From positions 2,542,001 through 2,606,000 of the forward strand of contig NZ_CP053840.1 in assembly GCF_013201665.1 (NCBI RefSeq): a stretch of DNA of 64,000 nucleotides, read 5' to 3'. Position 1 is the first letter of the stretch; each line of letters starts with the position of its first letter. A model generated the notes under the pieces. That model saw only the letters and a program-made list of their open reading frames with translations, had not been told where the DNA came from and did no database searches. Origin of the DNA: Arcobacter venerupis (lineage in GTDB: Bacteria; Campylobacterota; Campylobacteria; Campylobacterales; Arcobacteraceae). Shown here piece after piece: positions 14,570 through 30,242 of the stretch. The position numbers were made by a program, and so were the translations under genes.

Positions 14570-15517
14570 ATGAACAACCTAATACAAAATATCAAAAATG
14601 AAATGAAAAAAGTTATTGTTGGTCAAGAGGAGTTAATTGACTCTTTATTAATTGGTCTTATTGCAAATGGACACATTTTAGTTGAAGGTGTTCCAGGCCT
14701 TGCAAAAACAACTGCAATTAATGCCCTTGCCCAAGCTTTAGGAATAGAGTTTAAAAGAATACAATTTACTCCTGATTTACTTCCAAGTGATATAACTGGA
14801 ACTGAAATTTATAATCCAAAAAGTGGGGAATTTTCTATCAAAAAAGGACCTGCATTTACAAATCTACTTCTTGCAGATGAAATAAATAGAGCACCTGCAA
14901 AAGTTCAAGCAGCACTTTTAGAAGTAATGCAAGAGAGACAAATCACTATTTCAGATACAACTTTTAAATCTCCAAGTCCATTTTTAGTAATGGCAACAGA
15001 AAATCCAGTTGAACAAGAAGGAACTTATAGACTTCCTGAAGCGCAACTTGATAGATTTATGATGAAAGTTTTAGTGGGATACAACACTTTTGATGAAGAG
15101 ATGGAAATCGTAAATAGAGTTGCAATTAAAGGATTTGAACAAATTCAAGTTGTTGCAAGCGTTGATGATATTATAAATATGAAAGAGTCATTAAAGGAAA
15201 TACATGTTGATACTGCTGTAAAAAATTATATGACAAAACTAATTTTTTCAACAAGAGATCCCAAAGATTATGATTTACATGAAATTGCTGAATATATAGA
15301 GTTTGGAGCAAGTCCAAGAGCTTCTATTGATTTATATAAAGCAAGTATCGCAACTGCTTTGATAAGAGGAAAAGATTATGTAACTCCTTTAGATATCTCT
15401 TATGTTTTAAAAGGTGTATTAAGACATAGATTAATTCTTAACTTTAAAGCCAGAGCAAATGGAATTACAACTGATTATATTATTGAAAAAATTATCCAAA
15501 AAATAAAAACTCCTTAA
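14570..15517 (+). CDS. MoxR-family AAA+ ATPase (Bat operon)
   Basis: A 315-residue AAA_3/MoxR ATPase. Walker A is GVPGLAKT at 40-47, Walker B is LLADEINRAPAKVQAALLEVMQE near 103-120, followed by the sensor-1 segment ATENPVEQEGTYRLPEAQLDRF and a C-terminal lid with GASPRASIDL. MoxR ATPases act as chaperones or activators of von Willebrand factor A (vWA) proteins encoded beside them, and here two vWA proteins follow in the same operon. It starts a run of seven tightly packed genes and is preceded by AAAGG. Confidence 0.9.
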   Translation: MNNLIQNIKNEMKKVIVGQEELIDSLLIGLIANGHILVEGVPGLAKTTAINALAQALGIEFKRIQFTPDLLPSDITGTEIYNPKSGEFSIKKGPAFTNLLLADEINRAPAKVQAALLEVMQERQITISDTTFKSPSPFLVMATENPVEQEGTYRLPEAQLDRFMMKVLVGYNTFDEEMEIVNRVAIKGFEQIQVVASVDDIINMKESLKEIHVDTAVKNYMTKLIFSTRDPKDYDLHEIAEYIEFGASPRASIDLYKASIATALIRGKDYVTPLDISYVLKGVLRHRLILNFKARANGITTDYIIEKIIQKIKTP

Positions 15518-15534
15518 GTAAAAGGAACAATAAA

Positions 15535-16365
15535 ATGTATGATAAAGCAAAAGAGATAATAATAAAAGCCAAAACAAATATTTTTAATACAAATCTTGGA
15601 AATCAATTAACTTCTCTAAAAGGTGATGGTTTAGATTTTAAAGAGATTAAAGAGTACAACTATGGTGATAATATAAAAAATATCAACTGGAAAGCAACTG
15701 CTAAAAGTAATTCTCTAAAAGTAAATGTATTTGATGAAAGTAGACAGTTAAATATAATTGTTGCTTTTTTGATAAATGGAAGTTTAGAGTTTGGTTCTGT
15801 TAATATGAAACAAGATATTGCAACTGAAATTATCGCCCTACTTGGTTTTTCATCTATTTATAATCATGACTTACTTTTTCCTATTTTTTTTAGTAATAAA
15901 AGTGAAATATTTTATGAACCAACCTATGATGAGACAATTATGTATAAACTTATCCAAGATGCCTTAGAAATTAAGTGCATTAAAAAAGAAGTAGATTATA
16001 AAAAATTCTGTGATTATATAAATAATACAATGAAACAGCGTTCTGTTATTTTTGTAATTGGTGATTTTTATGGAGATGTGGATTTAAGTGAAATTGCTTA
16101 TACAAATGATGTTTATGCATTAATAGTACGAGATAGATTAGAAGAGTATCCTTTATTAAATGGTGAATACGAACTTGTAAATGCCACAAATCTTAAAAGT
16201 AGTGAATTTAATATTACAAAAAATGTTGCAAAAAAATATAAAGAACTTTTAGATTTACAAGATGAACAACTAAAAGAGCATTTTCTTAAACACAGAATCA
16301 CCCACGGAAAAATATACACAGACGATGATATTTTCCTTCGATTATCACAAATCATAAAAGGATAA
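15535..16365 (+). CDS. DUF58 domain protein (Bat operon)
   Basis: A 276-residue protein with the DUF58 signature GDGLDFKEIKEYNYGDNIKN followed by INWKATAKSNSLKVN. These proteins have a vWA-like fold with an incomplete metal site and nearly always follow a MoxR gene. No membrane segment is visible, so it is probably cytoplasmic. It starts 17 nt after the ATPase. The specific role is not known; with MoxR it is thought to work on the membrane vWA proteins. Confidence 0.85.
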   Translation: MYDKAKEIIIKAKTNIFNTNLGNQLTSLKGDGLDFKEIKEYNYGDNIKNINWKATAKSNSLKVNVFDESRQLNIIVAFLINGSLEFGSVNMKQDIATEIIALLGFSSIYNHDLLFPIFFSNKSEIFYEPTYDETIMYKLIQDALEIKCIKKEVDYKKFCDYINNTMKQRSVIFVIGDFYGDVDLSEIAYTNDVYALIVRDRLEEYPLLNGEYELVNATNLKSSEFNITKNVAKKYKELLDLQDEQLKEHFLKHRITHGKIYTDDDIFLRLSQIIKG

Positions 16366-16367
16366 AT

Positions 16368-16745
16368 GTGGAAGAGTTAAAAGATATAAAAGGAATTATT
16401 GAAGTTCCTGATTATTCCCTTTGGATTTTACTTAGCATGATTGTTGGTTTATTACTTTGTTTAATCTTTGCAATCTATTATTTTAAAAACCGAAGAAAAA
16501 AGAGAAAAAGATTAACATCAAAACAAATTGCAATGAAAAATTTAAAAGAGATAGATTTTGATGATACAAAAGGTGCGGTTTACAGTTTTTGTGAAAATTT
16601 CCAATACTTTATAGATGAAAAAAACAAAGAAGCTTTTGAAAAATTACAAAAAGAGTTGGAAATATTTAAATATAAAAAAGAGATAGAAAAACTCTCAGAA
16701 GAGCAAATAAACAAAATAAAAAGCATGATAAAGGAGATTAAATGA
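16368..16745 (+). CDS. Small membrane-anchored protein of the Bat operon (DUF4381-like)
   Basis: A 125-residue protein. One hydrophobic helix at about 17-41 is followed by a very basic patch (NRRKKRKR), so the C-terminal 80 residues, which are charged and helical, should lie in the cytoplasm. Position and architecture match the DUF4381 proteins found between DUF58 and the vWA genes in other Bat loci; sequence identity to that family was not tested. The start is GTG at 16368, 2 nt after the DUF58 stop. The ATGA overlap couples it to the next gene. Confidence 0.7.
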   Translation: MEELKDIKGIIEVPDYSLWILLSMIVGLLLCLIFAIYYFKNRRKKRKRLTSKQIAMKNLKEIDFDDTKGAVYSFCENFQYFIDEKNKEAFEKLQKELEIFKYKKEIEKLSEEQINKIKSMIKEIK

Positions 16746-17635
16746 ATTTTTTAAACTATACATTTGAATATCCTTATGCTTTTTTAATATTAATACTCTT
16801 TTTTGTATGTTTAAAATTTTGCAAAACAAAAGGTATCTCTTTTTATTTTCCTAATATTGCCTTGTTAGAAAAAGCCTCAAAAAGTTCAATGCTTTTAATA
16901 AATAGCTTAAAGTTTTTAACTGTTTTATTTTTAGTTATAGCTTTGAGTTCACCAATTAAAGAGGATGATGTAAATATTAAAAATGATGAAGGTTATGAAA
17001 TATCACTTATATTGGATGCCAGTGGTTCAATGATAGAAGCAAATAAATTTGGCATTGTAAAAGATATAGTGACAGATTTTGTTGATAAAAGAGAACATGA
17101 CCGTTTGGGTTTAAGTATTTTTGCAGATTTTGCATATGTGGCAATTCCTTTGACTTATGATAAAAATAGTATAAAAAGATTATTAAGTAAAATAGAAGTG
17201 GGAATTGCAGGACGACAAAGAACAGCTTTAAATGAAGCTCTATTTTTAAGTTCAAATCTCTTTAAAACAAGCAAATCAAAAAACAAGATTGCCATACTTT
17301 TAACTGATGGAATAGATAATACAAATACAATTCCTTTAGATGTGGCAATATCTACAGCCAAAAAATATGGAATAAAAGTTTATACAATTGGAGTTGGAAC
17401 TCCTGGAGATTTTAATCCAGCAGTACTGCAAGAAATTGCAAATCAAACAGATGCAAAATACTTTTATGCTGACACAATTCAAGGTTTAAAAGATATATAT
17501 TCAACAATTAATAAATTAGAAAAAAGTGAAATAAAAGCTGAAAAATATGTGAAAAAAACATATTTCTATCAATACTTTTTAGCTTTAGCAATGCTATTTT
17601 TCATGGCATATTTTTATATGTCAAATAAGGAGTAA
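16742..17635 (+). CDS. batA: BatA-type membrane vWA protein
   Basis: A 297-residue protein with membrane helices at about 12-26 and 53-70, a vWA domain from about residue 85 to 260, and a closing helix (FLALAMLFFMAYFYM). The metal-ion-dependent adhesion site is complete: DASGS at 92-96, the Thr in GRQRTAL and the Asp of LLTDGIDN. The domain should face the periplasm if the helices are oriented as in BatA. BatA and BatB of the Bacteroides aerotolerance locus are thought to assemble into a membrane complex with the TPR protein BatC. Confidence 0.85.
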   Translation: MNFLNYTFEYPYAFLILILFFVCLKFCKTKGISFYFPNIALLEKASKSSMLLINSLKFLTVLFLVIALSSPIKEDDVNIKNDEGYEISLILDASGSMIEANKFGIVKDIVTDFVDKREHDRLGLSIFADFAYVAIPLTYDKNSIKRLLSKIEVGIAGRQRTALNEALFLSSNLFKTSKSKNKIAILLTDGIDNTNTIPLDVAISTAKKYGIKVYTIGVGTPGDFNPAVLQEIANQTDAKYFYADTIQGLKDIYSTINKLEKSEIKAEKYVKKTYFYQYFLALAMLFFMAYFYMSNKE

Positions 17636-17637
17636 GG

Positions 17638-18582
17638 ATGTTTTATTTTAAAAATATAGAGTTTTTATATCTACTTTTTTTGATTATTCCTTTGATTTAT
17701 CTAATAAGTAAGAGAAAAGAGTTTGTTTTAGGACAATTTTCAGCTGAAGTATTTAAGAAAATAGAGTTTAAAAATAACAGATTCTCAAAAAAAACAAGAG
17801 CTATAATATTAATTTTCTCTTTTGTTTGTTTAATTTTTGCACTTGCAAGACCTGTAATGCAAAATGGTGAGATAAAAATAAAATCAAGTTTTGTGGATAT
17901 GTTAGTGGCTGTAGATATTTCAAAATCAATGATGGCAGATGATATTTATCCAAATAGATTTGAGTTTGAAAAAAATAAACTCTTCTCATTTTTAGATGAA
18001 CTAAAAAATATTAGAGTAGCCCTTGTGGGCTTTAGTTCTCAAACTTTTTTGATTTCACCTTTGACTGAGGATTTTAACTCTTTGAAGTTTTTAGTGAAAA
18101 ATCTAAGATTTGATTATCTAAATCTAAAAGGTACAAATATCAAATCAGTTTTAGAAGTTACAGATGATTTATTAAAAGATGAAAAAAATAAAATTCTATT
18201 AATCTTTACAGATGGTGGAAATGAAGATAATTTTGAAAATGAAATAGCTTATGCAAAAACCCACAATATCACAGTTTATGTTTATAATATAGGAACTTTA
18301 AATGGTGGAATTATCAAAGATGATAATGAAAATTCTGTTTTAGTAAAACTAAATGAAAATATTAAAAAATTAGCTTTAGATACAAATGGAGCATATTTGC
18401 AACAATCATTAAATCAAGATGATATAAAACAATTAAGTGAAATTATAAACAATAATTACAAAGCTGAAAAAGAAAAAGAAGATGTCATCAAGGATGAAAA
18501 AGAGTTGTTTATTTATCCATTAGTCTTGGCAATAATCCTATTTTTTATGGGGATTTTTTCACTTCCAAGGAGAGTATCATGA
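17638..18582 (+). CDS. batB: BatB-type membrane vWA protein
   Basis: A 314-residue paralogue of the preceding gene: two N-terminal helices (about 6-22 and 57-73), a vWA domain with DISKS at 93-97 and LIFTDGGNED further on, and a C-terminal helix near 290-307. The metal site is intact. It starts 2 nt after batA, and its stop overlaps the batC start by four bases (ATGA). The tandem pair of vWA genes is typical for Bat operons. Confidence 0.85.
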   Translation: MFYFKNIEFLYLLFLIIPLIYLISKRKEFVLGQFSAEVFKKIEFKNNRFSKKTRAIILIFSFVCLIFALARPVMQNGEIKIKSSFVDMLVAVDISKSMMADDIYPNRFEFEKNKLFSFLDELKNIRVALVGFSSQTFLISPLTEDFNSLKFLVKNLRFDYLNLKGTNIKSVLEVTDDLLKDEKNKILLIFTDGGNEDNFENEIAYAKTHNITVYVYNIGTLNGGIIKDDNENSVLVKLNENIKKLALDTNGAYLQQSLNQDDIKQLSEIINNNYKAEKEKEDVIKDEKELFIYPLVLAIILFFMGIFSLPRRVS

Positions 18583-19355
18583 GAATATTTATAAGTTTAC
18601 TTTTTATTACTTTTTCTTTTTCTTGGGCTTCGGTTTTTGATTTTAAATATTTAGATGATGCAAAAAAAGCTTATGAAAACAAAGATTATGAAAAAGCAGC
18701 AGATTCTTACTCAAAGGTAAATAGTGATGAAGCAAAATTTAATGAAGCAGACTCTTTATACAAAGCAAAAAAATATGAAGATGCTTTAAAAGCTTATTCA
18801 TCAATTTCAAATAAAAACTTAGAGTTTGACAAACTTTATAATATGGGAAATTCTTACGCTAATTTAAAAGATACAGATAAAGCCATAAAAAGTTATGAAG
18901 ATGCTTTAAAAATAAAAGATGATGAAGATGCAAAACATAATTTGGAAGTTTTGAAAAAGAAAAAAGAAGAACAAAAAAAGAATCAAGATAATAAAAGTGA
19001 CCAAAATAAGCAAGATGAAGAGAACAAACAACAAAATTCTCAAAATCAAAATCAGGACAAACAACAAAATAATAGTAAAGAAGATGAAAACAAAAAGGAA
19101 AATAGACAAGAGCCTGAACAACAACAAAATAGCCAAGACTCCCAAAAACCAGAGAATCAAAAAGATACAAAACAAGAAAATAAAAAAGAGCAAGAAGAGC
19201 AAAAACAAACACCAGCTTCCGAAATGCCACAAAAAGAACAAACAATTAGCAATATGGAAGAGAGAAAATGGCAAAAACTTCTAAATGATAGAGAGATAAA
19301 TACACTTTTACTTCCATTAACAAAAGGAGATAACAATGAAAAACAACCTTGGTAA
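18579..19355 (+). CDS. batC: BatC-type TPR protein with Lys/Gln/Asn-rich tail
   Basis: A 258-residue exported protein. A signal peptide (1-16, ending FSWAS) is followed by about three TPR units at 25-125 (AYENKDYEKAADSY, KKYEDALKAYSSI, YNMGNSYANLKDTDKAIKSY), then about 90 residues almost free of hydrophobics and dominated by K, Q, N, E and D. A final block, NMEERKWQKLLNDREINTLLLPL, looks like a docking helix. In BatC the TPR region is thought to bring the vWA partners together. The extreme composition of the linker explains the spurious antisense frames in this stretch. It overlaps batD by 20 bases. Confidence 0.8.
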   Translation: MRIFISLLFITFSFSWASVFDFKYLDDAKKAYENKDYEKAADSYSKVNSDEAKFNEADSLYKAKKYEDALKAYSSISNKNLEFDKLYNMGNSYANLKDTDKAIKSYEDALKIKDDEDAKHNLEVLKKKKEEQKKNQDNKSDQNKQDEENKQQNSQNQNQDKQQNNSKEDENKKENRQEPEQQQNSQDSQKPENQKDTKQENKKEQEEQKQTPASEMPQKEQTISNMEERKWQKLLNDREINTLLLPLTKGDNNEKQPW

Positions 19356-20862
19356 AATATTTATATTTTGCACATTTTTTCTAAGTGCCTTATTTGCAGA
19401 TGTTAAATTAACACTAAATACACCAGCGATTTACGCGGGAGAGATGGCTAGTTTTACAATTACTTCAAATAGTGATGGAGATGTGGAATTTCCAGAAATC
19501 AACACAATTGATAGTTATAATATAATCAATAGATCTTCATCTTCTTCAACAACTATTATAAATGGAAACTATTCTAAAAAAATATCAAAAACATATAGTT
19601 TTGCTCCAACAAAAGATGTGATTATTCCAGCTTTTGAGGTAAAAGTTGATGGAAAAACTTATACAACAAATCCTCAAAAAATTTCAGTTTTACAGCCAAG
19701 TGCCAGCAAAGATGGTGAAGATTTTGTAATTCAAATAAAAGCAGACAAACAAGAAGTAAAAGTTGGGGAATCAATTAATTTAGATGTAATGTTTAAATAT
19801 AAACTTGATTCTCAAATTGATAAGCTTCAAATTAGTGACCCAAAACTTGAAAATTTTTGGATAAAAAAAGTAGGTGATGCAGAAAAAAGTAGTGAAAATG
19901 AGTACATAGTTTACACACAAAAATATCTTTTATTTCCACAAAAATCAGGAGAATATGACTTAAAATCTTTAGAAGCTGATGTGGGAAAAGCTTTTAAACA
20001 AAAAATGGCAAATGATTTTTTTAATGATCCATTTTTTAAAGACCCATTTTTTGATTCAATAACAAGTACAATTAAATGGCAAAAAATTTATTCAAATGAT
20101 TTGCATATATCAGTTAAATCTTTACCAAATAATTTAGAACTTTTTGGTGATTACACTTTAAAAGCAACTGTTGATAAAACTTTAGTTGAAGCAAACCAAC
20201 CTGTAAATCTAACTATTGATATTAATGGGGTTGGAAATATTGATGATATTCAAAAATTCAATTTAACGATAGATAATGTTGTAAGTTACGCAGATGAGCC
20301 AAAAATTGATTCAACATTTGAAGATAAAGAATATAAAGGGGATTTCTCTCAAAAAATAGCTTTTGTTGCCCAAAATGATTATACGATTCCAAAAATTTCT
20401 TTGACTTATTTTGATAAAAATACAAATCAAGTTAAAACAATCTATTCAGAACCCATAAATATCAAAGTTATAAATAATAATTCAAATAACACAGCTGTAA
20501 AAATTGAAACTTCAAACAATACGCCAATTGTTTCAAACAATAGTGAAGAAACTCCAAAGATAAAAGAAGACAAAAATATAAACTACATAGTTTTAGCTCT
20601 TGTTGTTTTAGTTGTTATTTTGGCATTACTTCTACTTTTTAGAAATAAGAAAACAGATAAAAAAGTTGAAAAAGATATAGTACAAGCAATTAAAAAAGCT
20701 AAAAATGATAAAGAGTTATTTGAATTACTTTTAACATATAGTAAAAAAAGTGGAATAATTACAGATACTCTTAATAAATTAGAAGAGAATCTTTATAAAA
20801 AAACAAATCATAAAATTGATAAAAATGAATTAATGAATTTCTTTGAAGATGAAATAATGTAA
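19336..20862 (+). CDS. batD: BatD-family protein (oxygen-tolerance family)
   Basis: A 508-residue protein. A signal peptide (1-21, FLSALFADV) precedes a long beta-rich periplasmic region (about 22-380) with the BatD opening LTLNTPAIYAGEMASFTI and a second similar Ig-like unit (VKVGESINLDVMFKY). A membrane helix lies at about 413-437, and about 70 cytoplasmic residues, basic and helical, follow. This layout is that of BatD. It ends the operon; a hairpin terminator overlaps its stop codon. The start at 19336 lies inside batC with GGAG 6 nt upstream. Confidence 0.85.
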   Translation: MKNNLGKIFIFCTFFLSALFADVKLTLNTPAIYAGEMASFTITSNSDGDVEFPEINTIDSYNIINRSSSSSTTIINGNYSKKISKTYSFAPTKDVIIPAFEVKVDGKTYTTNPQKISVLQPSASKDGEDFVIQIKADKQEVKVGESINLDVMFKYKLDSQIDKLQISDPKLENFWIKKVGDAEKSSENEYIVYTQKYLLFPQKSGEYDLKSLEADVGKAFKQKMANDFFNDPFFKDPFFDSITSTIKWQKIYSNDLHISVKSLPNNLELFGDYTLKATVDKTLVEANQPVNLTIDINGVGNIDDIQKFNLTIDNVVSYADEPKIDSTFEDKEYKGDFSQKIAFVAQNDYTIPKISLTYFDKNTNQVKTIYSEPINIKVINNNSNNTAVKIETSNNTPIVSNNSEETPKIKEDKNINYIVLALVVLVVILALLLLFRNKKTDKKVEKDIVQAIKKAKNDKELFELLLTYSKKSGIITDTLNKLEENLYKKTNHKIDKNELMNFFEDEIM

Positions 20863-21541: not shown

Positions 21542-21824
21542 GTTTTTTTAAATTTCTTCTAATTTATTTAATTTTTAAACTTTACATTTATTCATATTAA
21601 ATAAATTTCAAGCTTTTTTTAGCACATTTCAACGCTAAAACTCCCTATTTATAGGCTCTAAATCCTTTCCTGATTTCTACCTTAAATTTATTTGCTATTT
21701 CAAAACCCATAAAAACAATTCATTTTAAATGGTGTATAACTTTCTTGTTAGTTTTCAAGTATAATAATTATGATGAAAATAAAGAAACAATAATAAAAAT
21801 CAATAAAAAGAAAGGTAGATGAGA

Positions 21825-22955
21825 ATGACTTCTGCAATAGATTTATCTAAATTAACAGCAAATGATGATTTAACACCAGTTCTTGGTGGATATTGGCCTG
21901 GTATTCAAATATATTACCCACCAATCAAATTTAATCCACTTGATGGAACATATGAAAGTATGGAACAAGCGAAATTAAGACTACAAAAACACGCTTATAA
22001 AACAAAAGCACATACTGTATTATTTGATTTAGAAGATGGTTGTAGACAAAAAGCTATGTCAAGGGAGTTATTAATTCAAGAGTTACCAAAATTTCCTGAG
22101 CGAAATTTTCAAATTGCTATCAGACTTAATCCATTTAGAACTGAAGAGTATGAAGAAGATTTAAAAATGTTAAAACAAATCCACCAATATATTGATGTTA
22201 TTGTTTTAGCAAAAGCTGGAGAAGTTTATGGAAGTGCTGAAATTAGAGATTTATCTTCTTGGTTAATTTCAATCGGAAGTAAGTTAACAATTCAACCAAT
22301 TATTGAACATCCAAAATCTTTACAAATTGCAGATAGATTAATGGAACACTCAACTGTAAAACATGTTGTTTTTGGAATCCATGACTTTTCTAAAGCTATG
22401 GCTTATAAAATCACTCCTCAAGGATGGATTAATGAGTTAGAAACTTTCTTTAATATGCTTACAATGGAAGCTAGAATTAAAGGTAAAGGAGTTATTGGTG
22501 GAGTTGAAGTTATGTTAACACCACACTCATTACCTGATTCTTGTGTTGAGAAAAAAGATATTAGAAGATGGTTAGATTTACATGGTGATGATGCATCTAG
22601 ACATGTTTATGCTCATGCAATTAGAGAAAATGCAATGGGATTAACTGGTAAACAAATCATTACACCAAATCATATTAATATCTGTAAAGTTGCATTTACT
22701 CCATCTCCAAATGAGCTTGCAAAAGATATTAGAATTTTAAAAGCTGCAATTGAAGCTGATGCGCTATTAAGTGGTGCAATTAGATATGAAGGTGAAATGT
22801 TAGATCCACCAATGTTTGGTAAATCTTTACAAAATATTTTAAGAGCTTACGCATTAAGAAGCTTAGAGAAAGAAGATGAAATATTTGCATTATCTGTATT
22901 AAATAGAATGCCAATTCACACATTTAAAGAAAACTGGCCATACGGTCAAATTTAG
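21825..22955 (+). CDS. HpcH/HpaI (CitE-type) CoA-ester lyase, first of three in the locus
   Basis: About 376 residues with the CitE/malyl-CoA-lyase TIM-barrel pattern: VLFDLEDGCRQKA near 66-78, a conserved Arg in AIRLNPF, the metal-ligand Glu in IIEHPKSL and the metal-ligand Asp in VVFGIHDFSKAMAY. All expected acidic residues are present. Members cleave or form CoA esters such as citramalyl-CoA, malyl-CoA or methylmalyl-CoA. The neighbours (CoA ligase fusion, MaoC hydratase, second lyase) favour a C5 substrate, and the exact one is inference. An in-frame ATG at 21819 is the alternative start; the second ATG is preferred because AAAGG at 21811-21815 is 9 nt away. The next gene is 14 nt downstream. 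Confidence 0.82.
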   Translation: MTSAIDLSKLTANDDLTPVLGGYWPGIQIYYPPIKFNPLDGTYESMEQAKLRLQKHAYKTKAHTVLFDLEDGCRQKAMSRELLIQELPKFPERNFQIAIRLNPFRTEEYEEDLKMLKQIHQYIDVIVLAKAGEVYGSAEIRDLSSWLISIGSKLTIQPIIEHPKSLQIADRLMEHSTVKHVVFGIHDFSKAMAYKITPQGWINELETFFNMLTMEARIKGKGVIGGVEVMLTPHSLPDSCVEKKDIRRWLDLHGDDASRHVYAHAIRENAMGLTGKQIITPNHINICKVAFTPSPNELAKDIRILKAAIEADALLSGAIRYEGEMLDPPMFGKSLQNILRAYALRSLEKEDEIFALSVLNRMPIHTFKENWPYGQI

Positions 22956-22969
22956 TAGGGAGAAATATT

Positions 22970-25489
22970 ATGAGTTCAAACGTTAAAATAGAAATACCTG
23001 AATTTTTAAACATTGGAGTTGCTTGTACTTCTTCTCATGTGGGAACACCTAAAGAGAACAGTATCGCAATGATTATTGAAGATGATAAATTAGGTACAGA
23101 TGAAATAACTTATAAAGATTTAGCTACTAAATCTGATCAAGTTTGTAATTTCTTTACAGGAATTGGTCTAGAAGCAAGAGATAGAGTTCTAGTTTGTTTA
23201 AAAAACTCATTAGCCTACCCTATTTCTTTTTTTGGAACTATGAAAGCAGGAATCATTGCAGTTCCAACTTCAACACTTTTAAGTGGTAGCGAAGTTAAAT
23301 ATCTTGCAGAAGATTCTCAAGCAAGAGCGATTGTATTATCAGCTTCTATGTATGAAAACTTAGTTCCTTACTTAGAAAACCTTGATAATTTAAAAACTAT
23401 TGTAATTGCAGGAATTGATAGTGTTGAAAATATCAAAAAACCAAAAGGTATTAATGTTTATTCATTAAATGAAATTTTTAAAAATACAGATAAAACTCCT
23501 AATCACTATAACTCTAAATCAGGTGAACCTGCATATTTAGTTTATACATCAGGAACAACAGGTTATCCAAAAGGTGTTTTACACTCTCACAGATCACTTG
23601 TTGGAAGAAAACCAGCAACTGATTTTTGGTTTAACTTTAAAGAAAATGACAGAATCATGCACTCTGGTAAATTTAACTGGACGTATGTTTTAGGTTCAGC
23701 TCTAATGGATCCATTGTTTAATGGGCATACGGTTATTGCTTATGAGGGTGCAAATGATGCATCAACTTGGATTAATTTAATTAAAAAACATAAATGTACT
23801 ATTTTTATTGGAGTTCCAACAATTTATAGACAAATTATCCAAAAAACTGATTTTACTTTAGAAGATTGCCCATCTTTAAGATATTGTATGTCAGCTGGTG
23901 AGCATTTATCTGATGAGATGTTAGGTCTTTGGAGAGAAAAATTCAAACAAGATATTTATGAAGCAATTGGAATGAGTGAATGTTCTTATTATATTTCACA
24001 CTCGATTTTTAACCCAATCAGACCAGGAAGTGCAGGATTTGTTCAGCCAGGGCATACTGTAAAACTACTTGACCCAGATACTTTAGAAGAAGTAAAAGAT
24101 GGGGAAGAAGGAATGATTTGTATTGGAGAAGATGATCCAGGATTATTCTTAGAGTATTGGCAATTAGAAGAAGAAACTGCAAAATCAAGACATGATGGAT
24201 ATTTCTTTACAGGTGATTATGCGAGACGTGATGAAGATGGATACATCTGGTTTATTGGTAGAAAAGATGATATTATCAATACATTTGGATTTAGAGTATC
24301 TCCACATGAAATCGAAAGAGTTGTAAAAACTCACGATGCAGTTGCTGATTGTGTTGCTTTTGGTTTAGATATTGGAAAAGATAAAACTATTGTTGCAATA
24401 GCTGTTATTGGACATGAAGAATTATCTGAAGAAAAACAAGGAGAGATTTTGGCATTTGCTCAAGCAAATTTAGCAAAATACAAAGCTCCAAAAGAGATTT
24501 TTGCAATGCTTGATTATCCAAGAACTAAAAATGGAAAAGTTTTAAGAAAACAACTTGTTAAACAATTACATGAAAAATACCATGCTATCGAGACAGGAAC
24601 AAAAGTTGTAGAATATAAGGCCAGACGTTCAATGTTATTTGTACCTGCTTACAATAAAAACAATGTTCAAAAAGCAAAAACCGTATTAGCTGATACAGTA
24701 ATTTTTGATCTTGAAGCAATTTTACAAGAGCAAAGAGAAACTGCAAGAGCTGTAATTAGAGAAGTATACAAAGAAGATGGATCTAAATTTGGTGAATCAG
24801 AAAGAGTTCTTAGAATCAATAATATTGGAAGTGAAGATGCAGCAAAAGATTTGACACTTGCTGGTGAAATTGAACTTGATGGTTTATTATTTTCTAAAAT
24901 TCAAACGAAAGAAGATGTTTTAGAAGCAGTTAAATTAACAGAAAAAATAAATCCAGACTTATCTTTGATGATTATGATTGAAACTCCATTAGCTGTTTTA
25001 AATATTCATGAAATTTGTGCAGCATCACCAAAAGTTGAAGTTGTAGTTGTTGGTTCTAATAAACTTGCAAATAGACTGCATATTGATGTAAAAAAAGGTT
25101 CAAAAGCAATGGTAAATTATTTATCACAAATTGCTCTTGCTTCAAAAGCTTATGGTAAAACGGTAATTGATGGACCACACTTTGATGTACACGATGAGTT
25201 TGCTTGTGAAGATTCAACAAAAGATGCCTTTAATTTAGGATTTGATGGTAAATCATTAATACATCCAATTCAAATTGAATATATCAATGATATTTTTACT
25301 CCAAAACAAGCTGAAGTTGAAGATTATGAAAAAATGATTGCAAAATATGAAGAAGCAGTAAAAGACGGTAAAGAAGTAATTTTACATAATGATAAATTAG
25401 TAGATTCTTCAAGAATTAAATGGGCTAAAAAGATGATAACTTTATATGAAACATATAAAGCTTTAGGTCAAAACCTATTTAATAAATAA
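22970..25489 (+). CDS. Acyl-CoA synthetase fused to a CitE-like domain
   Basis: An 839-residue fusion. Residues about 1-540 are an AMP-forming acyl-CoA synthetase: YTSGTTGYPKGVLHSHRS near 193-210, the SAGEHLSDEM and EAIGMSECSYY segments, the hinge GRKDDIINTFGFRVSPHEIE near 430-449, and the catalytic Lys in TKNGKVLRK near 520. From about 551 (RRSMLFVPAYNKNN) to the end it is a CitE/HpcH barrel, with MIMIETPLAVLN retained. In this barrel two acidic positions differ from family consensus: DLED is DLEA near 579, and the GTNDL-type metal loop is GSNKL. The ligase half looks active and, judging from benzoate- and acetate-type relatives, would activate a carboxylate such as citramalate or mesaconate. 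The lyase half may be altered or non-catalytic. It starts 14 nt after the first lyase gene. Confidence 0.85.
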   Translation: MSSNVKIEIPEFLNIGVACTSSHVGTPKENSIAMIIEDDKLGTDEITYKDLATKSDQVCNFFTGIGLEARDRVLVCLKNSLAYPISFFGTMKAGIIAVPTSTLLSGSEVKYLAEDSQARAIVLSASMYENLVPYLENLDNLKTIVIAGIDSVENIKKPKGINVYSLNEIFKNTDKTPNHYNSKSGEPAYLVYTSGTTGYPKGVLHSHRSLVGRKPATDFWFNFKENDRIMHSGKFNWTYVLGSALMDPLFNGHTVIAYEGANDASTWINLIKKHKCTIFIGVPTIYRQIIQKTDFTLEDCPSLRYCMSAGEHLSDEMLGLWREKFKQDIYEAIGMSECSYYISHSIFNPIRPGSAGFVQPGHTVKLLDPDTLEEVKDGEEGMICIGEDDPGLFLEYWQLEEETAKSRHDGYFFTGDYARRDEDGYIWFIGRKDDIINTFGFRVSPHEIERVVKTHDAVADCVAFGLDIGKDKTIVAIAVIGHEELSEEKQGEILAFAQANLAKYKAPKEIFAMLDYPRTKNGKVLRKQLVKQLHEKYHAIETGTKVVEYKARRSMLFVPAYNKNNVQKAKTVLADTVIFDLEAILQEQRETARAVIREVYKEDGSKFGESERVLRINNIGSEDAAKDLTLAGEIELDGLLFSKIQTKEDVLEAVKLTEKINPDLSLMIMIETPLAVLNIHEICAASPKVEVVVVGSNKLANRLHIDVKKGSKAMVNYLSQIALASKAYGKTVIDGPHFDVHDEFACEDSTKDAFNLGFDGKSLIHPIQIEYINDIFTPKQAEVEDYEKMIAKYEEAVKDGKEVILHNDKLVDSSRIKWAKKMITLYETYKALGQNLFNK

Positions 25490-25499
25490 GGAGTAAAAT

Positions 25500-26561
25500 T
25501 TGTCTAAGATAAACATGGGTAATTTTTTTGAAGATTTTTCAATCGGTCAAAAAATCGTTCATCCACTTCCAAGAACAATAAGTGATGGTGATGTATCTTT
25601 ATACATCGCTTTCACGGGTTCTAGATTTGCCCTACACTCTTCTGATGTAGTTGCAAAGGAAATGGGTTATGATAAAAAACCAATTGATGATGTTTTAATG
25701 TTCCATCTTACATTTGGAAAATCTGTTCAAGATGTTTCTTTAAATGCAATTGCAAACTTAGGTTATGCAGAGATGTCTTTTCCAAATCCAGTTTACGTGG
25801 GTGACACAGTTTCTATGACATCAACTGTAATTGGATTAAAAGAGAATTCAAATGGTAAAAGTGGAGTTGTTTATGTTCACTCTATTGGTGTTAACCAAAA
25901 TGGCGCTGTTGTATTAAACTTCAAAAGATGGGTAATGGTTCATAAAAAAGACCACTCTACTTTAAGTGGAGTAAATGAAGTTCCAACTTTTGCAAAAACA
26001 ACACCAATTGCAGATGTTATTAATATTCCAACAATTAAAACTGTAGATACAGATTCAACTGGTGGAAAATATTTCTTTGAAGATTATGTGCAAGGGGAAA
26101 GATTAAATCACCCAGAAGGTATTACTATTGATAATAGTGACCATACATTAGCAACAAAGTTATATCAAAACAATGCAAAAGTACATTTCAACGACCACAT
26201 GATGAAAAGCACACCAATGGGTCAAAGACTTATGTATGGTGGAATCATCATTTCAATGGCAAGAGCTATTTCATTTAATGGTTTACAAAATGCTCAATGG
26301 ATGTATGCAATAAATAGTGGAGCTCATGCAAACCCAACATACGCTGGTGATACAATCTATGCTTATACTGAAGTTGTTGAAACAATTGAAGTAAATAGAG
26401 AAGATATTGGATTATTAAGATTAAGAACTATTGCTCTTAAAAATCAAACTCCAAAAGAGATTGAAAATCCAAAAAGTGAAGATGGTAAATATTTACCAAA
26501 TGTTGTTCTTGATTTGGATTACACGGTTGTAATTCCAAAGAAAAAAACTGAAAAAAAATAA
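25500..26561 (+). CDS. MaoC-family double hot-dog hydratase (mesaconyl-CoA hydratase-like)
   Basis: A 353-residue protein with two MaoC hot-dog units, each opening with FFEDFSIGQ/FFEDYVQGE-type segments. The second unit has LYQNNAKVHFNDHMM. The first contains YIAFTGSRFALHSSD, the pattern seen in mesaconyl-CoA (2-methylfumaryl-CoA) hydratases. Those enzymes interconvert beta-methylmalyl-CoA and mesaconyl-CoA. The start is TTG at 25500 with AAGGAG 6 nt upstream. The next ATG (25515) would leave the ribosome binding site too far away. It is ten bases from the fusion gene and 33 from the next lyase, so it is clearly part of the operon. The substrate is inferred from family and neighbours. Confidence 0.8.
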   Translation: MSKINMGNFFEDFSIGQKIVHPLPRTISDGDVSLYIAFTGSRFALHSSDVVAKEMGYDKKPIDDVLMFHLTFGKSVQDVSLNAIANLGYAEMSFPNPVYVGDTVSMTSTVIGLKENSNGKSGVVYVHSIGVNQNGAVVLNFKRWVMVHKKDHSTLSGVNEVPTFAKTTPIADVINIPTIKTVDTDSTGGKYFFEDYVQGERLNHPEGITIDNSDHTLATKLYQNNAKVHFNDHMMKSTPMGQRLMYGGIIISMARAISFNGLQNAQWMYAINSGAHANPTYAGDTIYAYTEVVETIEVNREDIGLLRLRTIALKNQTPKEIENPKSEDGKYLPNVVLDLDYTVVIPKKKTEKK

Positions 26562-26594: not shown

Positions 26595-27578
26595 ATGACA
26601 CACCCTAATGAAGCACTATTTGGTTCTGGAGACAACTTACCAATCATCCCATCTTGTGAACATTTTGCAGGTAGCGAAAAGCTAATCTTAAAAGGTTTTG
26701 AGATGCAAAAAAAATTAGGACCTGTTTTTGATATTACTTGTGACTGCGAAGATGGAGCTGAAACTGGTAAAGAAGTTGCACATGCTGAAATGATCGTAAG
26801 AGTTGTTAATTCTGATGCAAATCCTTATGGAATGGCTGGAACTAGAATCCACGATTTTGACCATCCAGATTGGAGACAAGATATTGATATTTTAGTACCA
26901 GGTGCTGGAGAAAAATTAGCATATATTACAATTCCAAAATCAACTTCTTATGAAGATGCAAAAACTCAAGTTGAATATATCCAAGAAACTGCAAAAAAAG
27001 CTGGAATTAAAAGAGAAATCCCTATTCACGTTTTAATTGAAACTCATGGTGCTTTAAGAGATGTTGAAAAAACTGCAACACTACCATGGGTACAAGTTTT
27101 AGACTTTGGATTAATGGACTTCGTTTCTGGTTACCAAGGTGCAATTCCTGCTTCTAATATGAGAAGTCCAGGTCAATTTGAACATAGATTAATTGCTGCT
27201 GCAAAAGCTAAAGTTGTTCAAGCTGCACTTTCTAATCACATTATTCCTTGTCATAATGTTACACTTGATTTAAAAAACCCATACCAAACTTACAAAGATG
27301 CGGAAAAAGCAAGAAATGAGTTCGGGTTTATGAGAATGTGGTCAATTTACCCAACTCAAGTACAAGCTATTGTTGATGCTATGAAACCAGACTTTACAGA
27401 ACTTGAAGCTGCACAAAATATTTTAATTGCTGCTCAAGATGCTGAGTGGGGACCAATTCAATATGATGGTGAATTACACGATAGAGCAACTTACAGATAT
27501 TTCTGGGAATTAGTTCAAAGAGCAAATTTCTCTGGAACAAAATTACAAGATGAAGTAACTAAAAGATTCTTTTCTTAA
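26595..27578 (+). CDS. Malyl-CoA / beta-methylmalyl-CoA lyase-like protein
   Basis: A 327-residue HpcH/HpaI-family lyase. The acidic signature reads ITCDCEDGAETGK near 48-60, followed by the conserved Arg in GTRIHDFDHPDW, the metal-ligand Glu in LIETHGALRDVEK and the metal-ligand Asp in VLDFGLMDFVSGY. WSIYPTQVQAI near the end is the usual (H/Y)P-x-Q segment that closes the site. It is most like the malyl-CoA-lyase subgroup, which joins glyoxylate to acetyl-CoA or propionyl-CoA. With the preceding hydratase this gives glyoxylate plus propionyl-CoA to mesaconyl-CoA, which is inference. It is the last gene before a hairpin terminator. Confidence 0.82.
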   Translation: MTHPNEALFGSGDNLPIIPSCEHFAGSEKLILKGFEMQKKLGPVFDITCDCEDGAETGKEVAHAEMIVRVVNSDANPYGMAGTRIHDFDHPDWRQDIDILVPGAGEKLAYITIPKSTSYEDAKTQVEYIQETAKKAGIKREIPIHVLIETHGALRDVEKTATLPWVQVLDFGLMDFVSGYQGAIPASNMRSPGQFEHRLIAAAKAKVVQAALSNHIIPCHNVTLDLKNPYQTYKDAEKARNEFGFMRMWSIYPTQVQAIVDAMKPDFTELEAAQNILIAAQDAEWGPIQYDGELHDRATYRYFWELVQRANFSGTKLQDEVTKRFFS

Positions 27579-27750: not shown

Positions 27751-29244
27751 ATGAAAGTAATTAAAGAACAAGATATAGTAGATAGTATTGCAGACGCCTG
27801 TCAATACATTTCATATTTTCACCCAGAAGATTTTGTAACAGCTATGGTTGAAGCTTATGAAAATGAAAAAGGTGAAGCTGCTAAAAATGCAATTGGACAA
27901 ATTTTAATTAATTCTAAAATGTGTGCATTGGGACATAGACCTTTATGTCAAGATACTGGATCAGTAAATATTTTTGTTAGAGTTGGATTAAAAGCTAACT
28001 TGGAATTAACGAAAGAATTAGTTGATGTATTAAACGAAGGTGTTGCAAAAGGATATACTGATCCTGATAATACTTTAAGATATTCTGTTGTTTCTGATCC
28101 TGCTGGAAAAAGAACTAATACTAAAAACAATACTCCTGCTGTTATTCATGTTACTGTTGATAATTCTGATGAATTAGATATTACTGTTGCTGCAAAAGGT
28201 GGAGGAAGTGAAAACAAATCTAAATTTGCTGTATTAAATCCATCAGATTCTATTTATGACTGGGTTATGGCAAATGTTAGAGAAATGGGAGCTGGATGGT
28301 GTCCTCCTGGAATTTTAGGTATTGGTATTGGTGGAAATCCAGAAAAAGCTATGCTTTTAGCAAAAGAATCTTTAATGGGTCATGTTGATATTCATGAACT
28401 ACAAAAAAGAGGTCCTCAAAATGCTTTAGAAGAATTAAGATTAAAATTATATGAAGATATTAATAAAATAGGAATTGGTGCACAAGGATTAGGAGGATTA
28501 ACAACAGTTGTTGATGTTAAAATTTTAGATTATCCATGTCATGCTGCTTCTTTACCAGTTGCAATGATTCCTAACTGTGCTGCAACTAGACATATTCACT
28601 TTAAACTAAAAGCTGGAGAAGGTGTAGCTAAATTTAAAAAACCAAATTTAGATTTATGGCCAGATATTGAACTTCCAATGGATACAATTAAAAAAGTAAA
28701 TATTGCAGACTTAACTAAAGAGAACTTATCTCAATTTAAATCAGGTGATACATTATTATTAACTGGAAAAATTTTAACTGCACGTGATGCTGCTCATAAA
28801 AAAATTGTTGAGTACAAAAATGCTGGTAAACCTCTTCCAAATGGTGTTGATTTAAAAGACAGATTCATTTATTATGTTGGACCTGTTGATCCAGTAAGAG
28901 ATGAAAAAGTAGGACCTGCGGGACCAACTACATCTACAAGAATGGATAAATTTACAAAAGACATGATGGAAATTGGAATCATGGGAATGATTGGTAAAGC
29001 TGAAAGAAAACAGCCAACAATTGATTTAATTAAAGAATATAAATCTATGTATTTAATTGCAACGGGAGGTGCAGCATACTTAATTTCTCAATCAATTAAA
29101 GATGCTAAAGTTCTTGCTTTTGAAGAAATGGGAATGGAAGCTATTTACGAATTTGATGTAGAAGACATGCCTGTTACTGTGGCAGTTGATACAGAAGGTG
29201 TTTCAATTCACACTACTGGTCCTGCTAAATGGAGAACTATTTAA
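27751..29244 (+). CDS. Class I (Fe-S) fumarate hydratase, possible mesaconase
   Basis: A 497-residue single-chain class I fumarase with alpha and beta parts joined. The N-terminal part has ALGHRPLCQDTGSVNIFV, GGGSENKSK and GAGWCPPGILGIGIGGNPEKAM. The middle has IPNCAATRHIHF. The C-terminal part has GPVDPVRDEKVGPAGPTTSTRMD and AERKQPTIDLIKEY. The Cys residues in RPLCQD and PNCAAT are among the expected [4Fe-4S] ligands. Its main reaction would be fumarate to L-malate in the TCA cycle. Class I fumarases are also known to hydrate mesaconate to (S)-citramalate (for example E. coli FumA/FumB/FumD and a Burkholderia xenovorans enzyme). That would fit the locus it follows. Confidence 0.9.
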   Translation: MKVIKEQDIVDSIADACQYISYFHPEDFVTAMVEAYENEKGEAAKNAIGQILINSKMCALGHRPLCQDTGSVNIFVRVGLKANLELTKELVDVLNEGVAKGYTDPDNTLRYSVVSDPAGKRTNTKNNTPAVIHVTVDNSDELDITVAAKGGGSENKSKFAVLNPSDSIYDWVMANVREMGAGWCPPGILGIGIGGNPEKAMLLAKESLMGHVDIHELQKRGPQNALEELRLKLYEDINKIGIGAQGLGGLTTVVDVKILDYPCHAASLPVAMIPNCAATRHIHFKLKAGEGVAKFKKPNLDLWPDIELPMDTIKKVNIADLTKENLSQFKSGDTLLLTGKILTARDAAHKKIVEYKNAGKPLPNGVDLKDRFIYYVGPVDPVRDEKVGPAGPTTSTRMDKFTKDMMEIGIMGMIGKAERKQPTIDLIKEYKSMYLIATGGAAYLISQSIKDAKVLAFEEMGMEAIYEFDVEDMPVTVAVDTEGVSIHTTGPAKWRTI

Positions 29245-29408: not shown

Positions 29409-30242
29409 ATGTTATTAGATGATTTAAAAGATTATTTAGGTTTTGCTGTTGCTGGAAATTTTGCTAATCACTTAGGTGAAGCGGGAGAAGCTAGTGAATT
29501 TGCAGTAATAAAAACCGAAGAAAAAGATGCACCAAAAGGAATGTTTCCTTTTTATATAAAAAACCATAACAGTTTTTTGGGAACTTATCCAATATGTGAT
29601 GAAATTATTTTAACACATGGAAGAGAAAATGAGAATTTACAAGTTGAAGCAGAAGTTGCATTAATTTGTGACTTTGAATACAAAGATGGAAAAGTAATTG
29701 ATATTATTCCAAAATATTTTTCAGCCTTTAATGACTGCTCTATTAGGGTAAATAATGGAGAGAAATTAAGTACTAAAAAGAACTGGGGAATTAATACAAA
29801 AGGAATTTCACAAGATATTATAGAGATTGATAACTTTACTGAAAAAGGAATTTTAAGTAAATATCATATCTCTTCATTTATCAAAAGAGATGGAATTGTA
29901 TATGATTATGGAACAACAAGTGCTGTAAAATCATATAGTTACTTTTTTCATCAATTAAAAGATTGGATGATAAATAAATTAAATACCCAAGAAGATTGTG
30001 GACCACTTGAAGAGTTAACTCAATTTATGACTGAGGCAAAAAATTCAAAAGGTATTTTAATAGCAGCAGGTGCAACTGCTTATACAGAATTTGGAAAACA
30101 CAATTTTCTAAAAAAAGGTGATGAAATTTTTGTTTATGTTTATAATGCCCATGCACATAGTTTCTTAGATATTATGAATGATATGTGCGGGATGGATACT
30201 TATTTAGGACAATGTTCAAAACTTCATCAAATAGTACAATAA
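29409..30242 (+). CDS. DUF5718-like protein with fumarylacetoacetase-like features
   Basis: A 277-residue soluble protein without signal peptide or membrane helix. The stretch HGRENENLQVEAEVALICDF resembles the metal-binding and core strand of FAH-fold hydrolases (EVEVAVVI pattern), and GATAYTEFGKHNFLKKGDEIFVYVYN looks like the closing part of that fold. I recall a DUF5718 family of this size in Campylobacterota, but the assignment is from memory and uncertain. No catalytic function is claimed. It stands alone between two terminators, so it is a single-gene unit; the nearby fumarase and lyases may be coincidence. Confidence 0.55.
   Translation: MLLDDLKDYLGFAVAGNFANHLGEAGEASEFAVIKTEEKDAPKGMFPFYIKNHNSFLGTYPICDEIILTHGRENENLQVEAEVALICDFEYKDGKVIDIIPKYFSAFNDCSIRVNNGEKLSTKKNWGINTKGISQDIIEIDNFTEKGILSKYHISSFIKRDGIVYDYGTTSAVKSYSYFFHQLKDWMINKLNTQEDCGPLEELTQFMTEAKNSKGILIAAGATAYTEFGKHNFLKKGDEIFVYVYNAHAHSFLDIMNDMCGMDTYLGQCSKLHQIVQ

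Follow-up and report, generated by a model that had tools for sequence, protein, structure and literature searches.

A CitE-type domain fused to an acyl-CoA ligase in Arcobacter venerupis and other Campylobacterota lacks its metal site and is a probable pseudoenzyme

The ligase-CitE fusion and its gene cluster

We have analyzed a stretch of 64,000 nucleotides from the genome of Arcobacter venerupis (NZ_CP053840.1, positions 2,542,001 to 2,606,000), referred to here as the window. It contains an open reading frame, with the frame and motifs given in a preliminary description of this DNA, in which an AMP-forming acyl-CoA ligase is joined to a CitE-type barrel (Table 1). The gene belongs to a tight cluster transcribed from one strand in the order lyase A, fusion, MaoC-type hydratase, lyase B and class I fumarase. 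The 3.2 Mb single-contig genome has only three matches to the HpcH_HpaI family, all of them within this cluster. The N-terminal half of the fusion has the features of an AMP-forming acyl-CoA ligase, i.e., the AMP-binding domain, the P-loop (TSGTTGYPKG, conserved in the alignment of fusions) and the Lys motif of the C-terminal subdomain, where GKVL was conserved in 18 of 18 aligned fusions. In the C-terminal half, the residues after 766 up to the end of the frame form the lid of the barrel, and the motifs G..GK..HP.Q and FTP are conserved. The two stand-alone lyases retain the acidic motifs already reported for them, DLEDG/GIHD in lyase A and DCEDG/GLMD in lyase B.

Table 1. Features of the fusion and of its cluster (positions in the window; residues of the fusion protein).
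Feature	Positions	Strand	Residues	Remarks
Lyase A, CitE-like	21819..22955	+		Compared active-site residues intact
Fusion ORF	22970..25489	+	839 aa	AMP-forming acyl-CoA ligase joined to CitE-type barrel
AMP-binding domain	23096..24160	+	43-397	PF00501, 239.5 bits
AMP-binding_C subdomain	24308..24538	+	447-523	PF13193; ends at the NGK Lys, K523
CitE-type TIM barrel (HpcH_HpaI)	24626..25267	+	553-766	PF03328, 111.9 bits, above cut-off
DLE-A	24707..24718	+	Asp580, Leu, Glu582, then deletion	Second Asp of DLED deleted; position of Asp45 in R. sphaeroides malyl-CoA lyase
Substrate Arg	24812..24814	+	Arg615	Arg76 equivalent, kept (alignment)
Metal ligand Glu, in MIMIETP	24980..24982	+	Glu671	Glu141 equivalent, one of two metal ligands, kept (alignment)
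Second metal-ligand position, in GSNKL (695-699)	25061..25063	+	Lys698	True substitution of Asp168 (alignment)
Shared derived residues of the operon clade	25178..25210	+	His737 to Cys746-Glu747	
Derived conserved stretch following IHPxQ	25280..25306	+	Y771-x-N-D774-x-FTP-K779	
Lid Asp	25403..25405	+	Asp812	Asp299 equivalent (alignment)
MaoC-type hydratase	25500..26561	+		Mesaconyl-CoA hydratase family; PF19315, 81 bits
Lyase B, CitE-like	26595..27578	+		Compared active-site residues intact; 467 bits to solved putative lyase 3qqw
Class I fumarase, possible mesaconase	27751..29244	+		PF05681 and PF05683

Downstream of the cluster there is a DUF5718 protein (29409-30242), with 77-96% identity in the three Arcobacteraceae loci that have a listed match, and upstream (14570-20862) a run of genes that, from their translations, would code for MoxR-type AAA, DUF58-like, vWA and TPR proteins. 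The formation of mesaconate from glutamate through methylaspartate ammonia-lyase was considered and rejected, as the genome has no match to PF07476. Isocitrate lyase was also set aside: the sole match to PF00463 is a stretch of 312 bases in a frame of 297 aa, in keeping with the methylisocitrate-lyase type.

Active-site residues and predicted fold

Four acidic residues, Glu44, Asp45, Glu141 and Asp168 (numbering of the Rhodobacter sphaeroides malyl-CoA lyase), have been described as absolutely conserved across the CitE-like superfamily and the malate synthases (Zarzycki and Kerfeld, PMC3832036). The first two hold metal-bound waters, the last two bind the metal itself, and the characterised members of the superfamily require a divalent metal (PMC3832036). 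We aligned the fused domain with solved malyl-CoA lyases, CLYBL and 23 intact relatives, so that the residue correspondence is one of sequence alignment and not of superposition. The preliminary description had reported the loss of two acidic positions, and both are indeed lost. That at the metal-binding Asp is a replacement, by Lys698, which leaves the site with one direct ligand, Glu671. The other, which had been read as DLEA in place of DLED, is not a substitution: DLE-AIL corresponds to DLEDAV minus one residue, i.e., the second Asp has been deleted and with it the Glu44-Asp45 pair. The substrate Arg and an acidic lid residue are both present (Arg615, Asp812).

The same pattern holds well beyond this strain. 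DLEA and GSNKL are near-invariant among the closest orthologues, and the alignment of ligase-CitE fusions proposed in the preliminary description showed that the second Asp is deleted and the metal Asp lost in 42 of 42 Campylobacterota fusions, which rules out sequencing error or chance. The residue that occupies the Asp168 position varies among these 42 (K in 26, N in 8, T in 7, S in 1), and this is what would be expected of relaxed constraint rather than of a new catalytic use, favoring the loss of catalysis. It was also the reason to reject Lys698 as a Schiff-base residue or metal mimic in any general explanation, lysine being one of four residues found there. The lid Asp is kept in every fusion (42/42) and the equivalents of Glu671 and Arg615 in most of them.

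The fold, also claimed from the start, is predicted to be intact. The AF2 model of the isolated C-terminal domain (pLDDT 91, pTM 0.87) matches human CLYBL (Z 33.6), 5ugr (Z 33.3 over 284 residues) and the R. sphaeroides malyl-CoA lyase (4l9y, Z 31.5 over 282 residues), and we can assign it with high confidence to the CitE-like TIM barrels with a C-terminal lid as in malyl-CoA lyase. The model of the full-length fusion reached a pTM of 0.50, a value at which the orientation of the two domains is too uncertain to read an interface.

Distribution of fused and split forms

The fusion was present in 34 of the 60 genomes first searched, covering the genus of the window and three further genera of its family, and was also found in Sulfurospirillum; full-length fusions have no internal stop codons. 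Pieces of neighboring genes were seen at two loci: lyase B in two parts of 126 and 275 aa (L139:10781-11986, genome G930), which could stem from a stop codon, a frameshift or faulty assembly, and the MaoC hydratase in two parts adjoining an intact fusion (L145:7327-8391, genome G327).

Kangiella, Pleionea and other Gammaproteobacteria were found in a genome scan to have this operon too, but with the CitE-type gene separate and located between the ligase and the hydratase. A search for lyase A in 369 gammaproteobacterial genomes gave six carriers, one of them a Kangiella genome already included, and the five new ones all had the ligase, a separate CitE-type gene, the hydratase and lyase B nearby. 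Every lyase A locus whose neighborhood was examined contained the CitE-type domain, fused or split. Plasmid carriage of the operon was looked for and none was found. In one of the gammaproteobacteria (L143) the ligase and lyase A form a pair divergent from the group of CitE-type gene, hydratase and lyase B, and the part with the hydratase and lyase B is directly followed by genes that, from their translations, would code for a methylisocitrate lyase and a methylcitrate synthase (L143:15043-17114), a neighborhood in keeping with propionyl-CoA metabolism. A truncated fusion at the end of a contig in a Neptunomonas MAG was set aside as probable contamination; its ligase is 76% identical to that of the window, and the MAG has no match to lyase A.

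In the split copies the DLED motif is replaced by DLQE, DLHE, DLHR, ELHE or DLGA, so that the Glu44-Asp45 pair is absent from all operon copies, fused and split (62/62). The metal Asp persists in 15 of 15 copies of the Kangiella/Pleionea group and in two of the five others. The Kangiella and Pleionea copies retain both direct metal ligands, so that activity might persist in part of the clade. At the lid position they have Glu, and the split gammaproteobacterial copies as a whole Glu or Gln.

Ancestry and selection

In a maximum likelihood tree the fused and split copies formed one clade (100/96), within which the fused copies were monophyletic (100/100) and sister to the Kangiella/Pleionea group. 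Six residues (H737, C746, E747, Y771, D774 and K779) are near-universal in this clade and rare among canonical relatives. Its sister comprised three sequences (L115, L129 and L130), all with DLED, the metal Asp and a lid Glu, although some branches at this join are long and it is not beyond doubt. A lid Glu marks the malyl-CoA thioesterase cluster of R. sphaeroides (PMC3832036); in the window this position is Asp812. Downstream of the Tritonibacter member of the sister group (L130) come an NnrU gene and then a mesaconyl-CoA hydratase gene, and in R. sphaeroides and Paracoccus denitrificans the locus tags of mcl-2 and mch are three apart (PMC6747724). L130 is therefore a probable orthologue of the malyl-CoA thioesterase Mcl2, and the nearest intact relatives of the domain would lie on the thioesterase side of the superfamily and not among the lyases.

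Over eight pairs, dN/dS was between 0.13 and 0.22 for the C-terminal domain versus 0.07 to 0.145 for the ligase, i.e., about 1.1 to 2.3 times the ligase value, indicating weaker constraint than on the ligase but clear purifying selection. These values, together with the shared derived residues, indicate that the domain has been kept for some function.

A non-catalytic partner of the ligase

We consider that the C-terminal half is best explained as a pseudoenzyme, a non-catalytic partner of the ligase that derives from a thioesterase-side ancestor, and would give this reading a probability of about 0.55. Judging from its residues, the barrel is very probably no longer capable of metal-dependent lyase chemistry. 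The suggestion in the preliminary description that it has become a binding or regulatory part gains support from losses that are fixed in every fusion. In the scenario that we propose, a CitE-type domain from the thioesterase side would have lost its Mg2+ site, with fold, lid and CoA-binding end all preserved. It would originally have been a separate operon protein, as it still is in Gammaproteobacteria, and would have been joined once, in Campylobacterota, to the preceding ligase gene. As a partner it may bind a CoA ester of the pathway, hold the ligase in an oligomer, or both, so that a C4/C5-dicarboxyl-CoA (possibly mesaconyl-, citramalyl- or malyl-CoA) would be formed within an assembly that includes the downstream hydratase and lyases, or in a manner tuned to these enzymes. 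Against the pseudoenzyme, the retention of Glu671, Arg615 and Asp812 exceeds what a fully dead site would need.

These same residues leave some room, perhaps one chance among several, for an enzyme with altered, metal-independent chemistry that, for example, hydrolyzes or transfers a CoA thioester beside the ligase, with Lys698 replacing the metal in the lineage of the window. The probable thioesterase in the sister clade and the invariant derived Cys-Glu and His of the operon clade point the same way, but no common replacement chemistry fits a metal position that is not fixed, and it would depart from the metal requirement of the superfamily. A more specific version, in which the whole operon clade evolved a metal-independent activity on CoA esters (hydrolysis or hand-over to the ligase) with His737, Cys746-Glu747 and Lys779 taking the place of Mg2+, is a long shot. 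It is also improbable that the domain is a catalytic helper whose lid, with Asp812, contributes to the active sites of lyase A or lyase B in mixed trimers or hexamers. The active site of a malyl-CoA lyase subunit is indeed completed by the lid of an adjacent one (PMC3832036), both lyases share the operon with the fusion and no fusion lacks the lid Asp; however, the domain and its lyase A matches are only about 20-26% identical and the lid position is Glu or Gln in the split copies.

An ordinary bifunctional ligase-lyase seems very unlikely: the fusion is conserved and was listed as a possible malyl-CoA lyase in a 2007 genome paper on Arcobacter butzleri (PMC2147049), but the metal Asp and the DLED Asp are absent from all fusions and intact lyases adjoin it. 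The channelling from ligase to lyase that the preliminary description saw in the fusion falls with the metal site, with the separate state of the domain in Gammaproteobacteria and with nearest intact relatives that appear to be on the thioesterase side. Equally hard to sustain is a decaying functionless remnant, to which the raised dN/dS of the domain would lend itself, given that the ratio is still low, full-length fusions are free of internal stops and the domain is retained across two phyla.

If the pseudoenzyme reading is right, a domain tied to an acyl-CoA ligase over two phyla, fused or as a neighbor, provides a ready case for comparing the steps by which a domain turns from enzyme into partner of another enzyme. 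For annotation, pathway reconstructions in Arcobacter should include the fused domain as a third malyl-CoA lyase only if an assay supports this.

Comparison with known systems

In the literature searched, from which subscription papers were mostly absent, the 2007 genome paper was the only one found that deals with a CitE pseudoenzyme or a ligase-CitE fusion, and we found no earlier description of the dismantled site, the split homologues or the thioesterase-side ancestry. The fusion and its operon had already been described there in A. butzleri RM4018 (AB1918, in the cluster ab1917-ab1921), with the same gene order, the same domain layout (CaiC 50-550, CitE 550-825) and the same proposed mesaconate/methylmalyl-CoA pathway (PMC2147049). 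The parts of that paper that concern AB1918 make no mention of a missing metal site, of split homologues or of the clade.

With malyl-CoA lyase, CLYBL and CitE the fused domain shares the fold, the Arg, one metal Glu, the HP.Q motif and the lid, and it differs from them in having neither the second metal ligand nor the equivalent of Asp45. The likeness to Mcl2, the (3S)-malyl-CoA thioesterase of R. sphaeroides (RSP_0970), comes through the nearest intact relatives of the domain. These have the Glu of that cluster at the lid position, and the Tritonibacter one has a mesaconyl-CoA hydratase gene nearby, as for mcl-2 and mch in R. sphaeroides and P. denitrificans. Mcl2 is a stand-alone protein that was assayed with Mg2+ and, unlike the fused domain, the relatives on its side have intact DLED and GTND.
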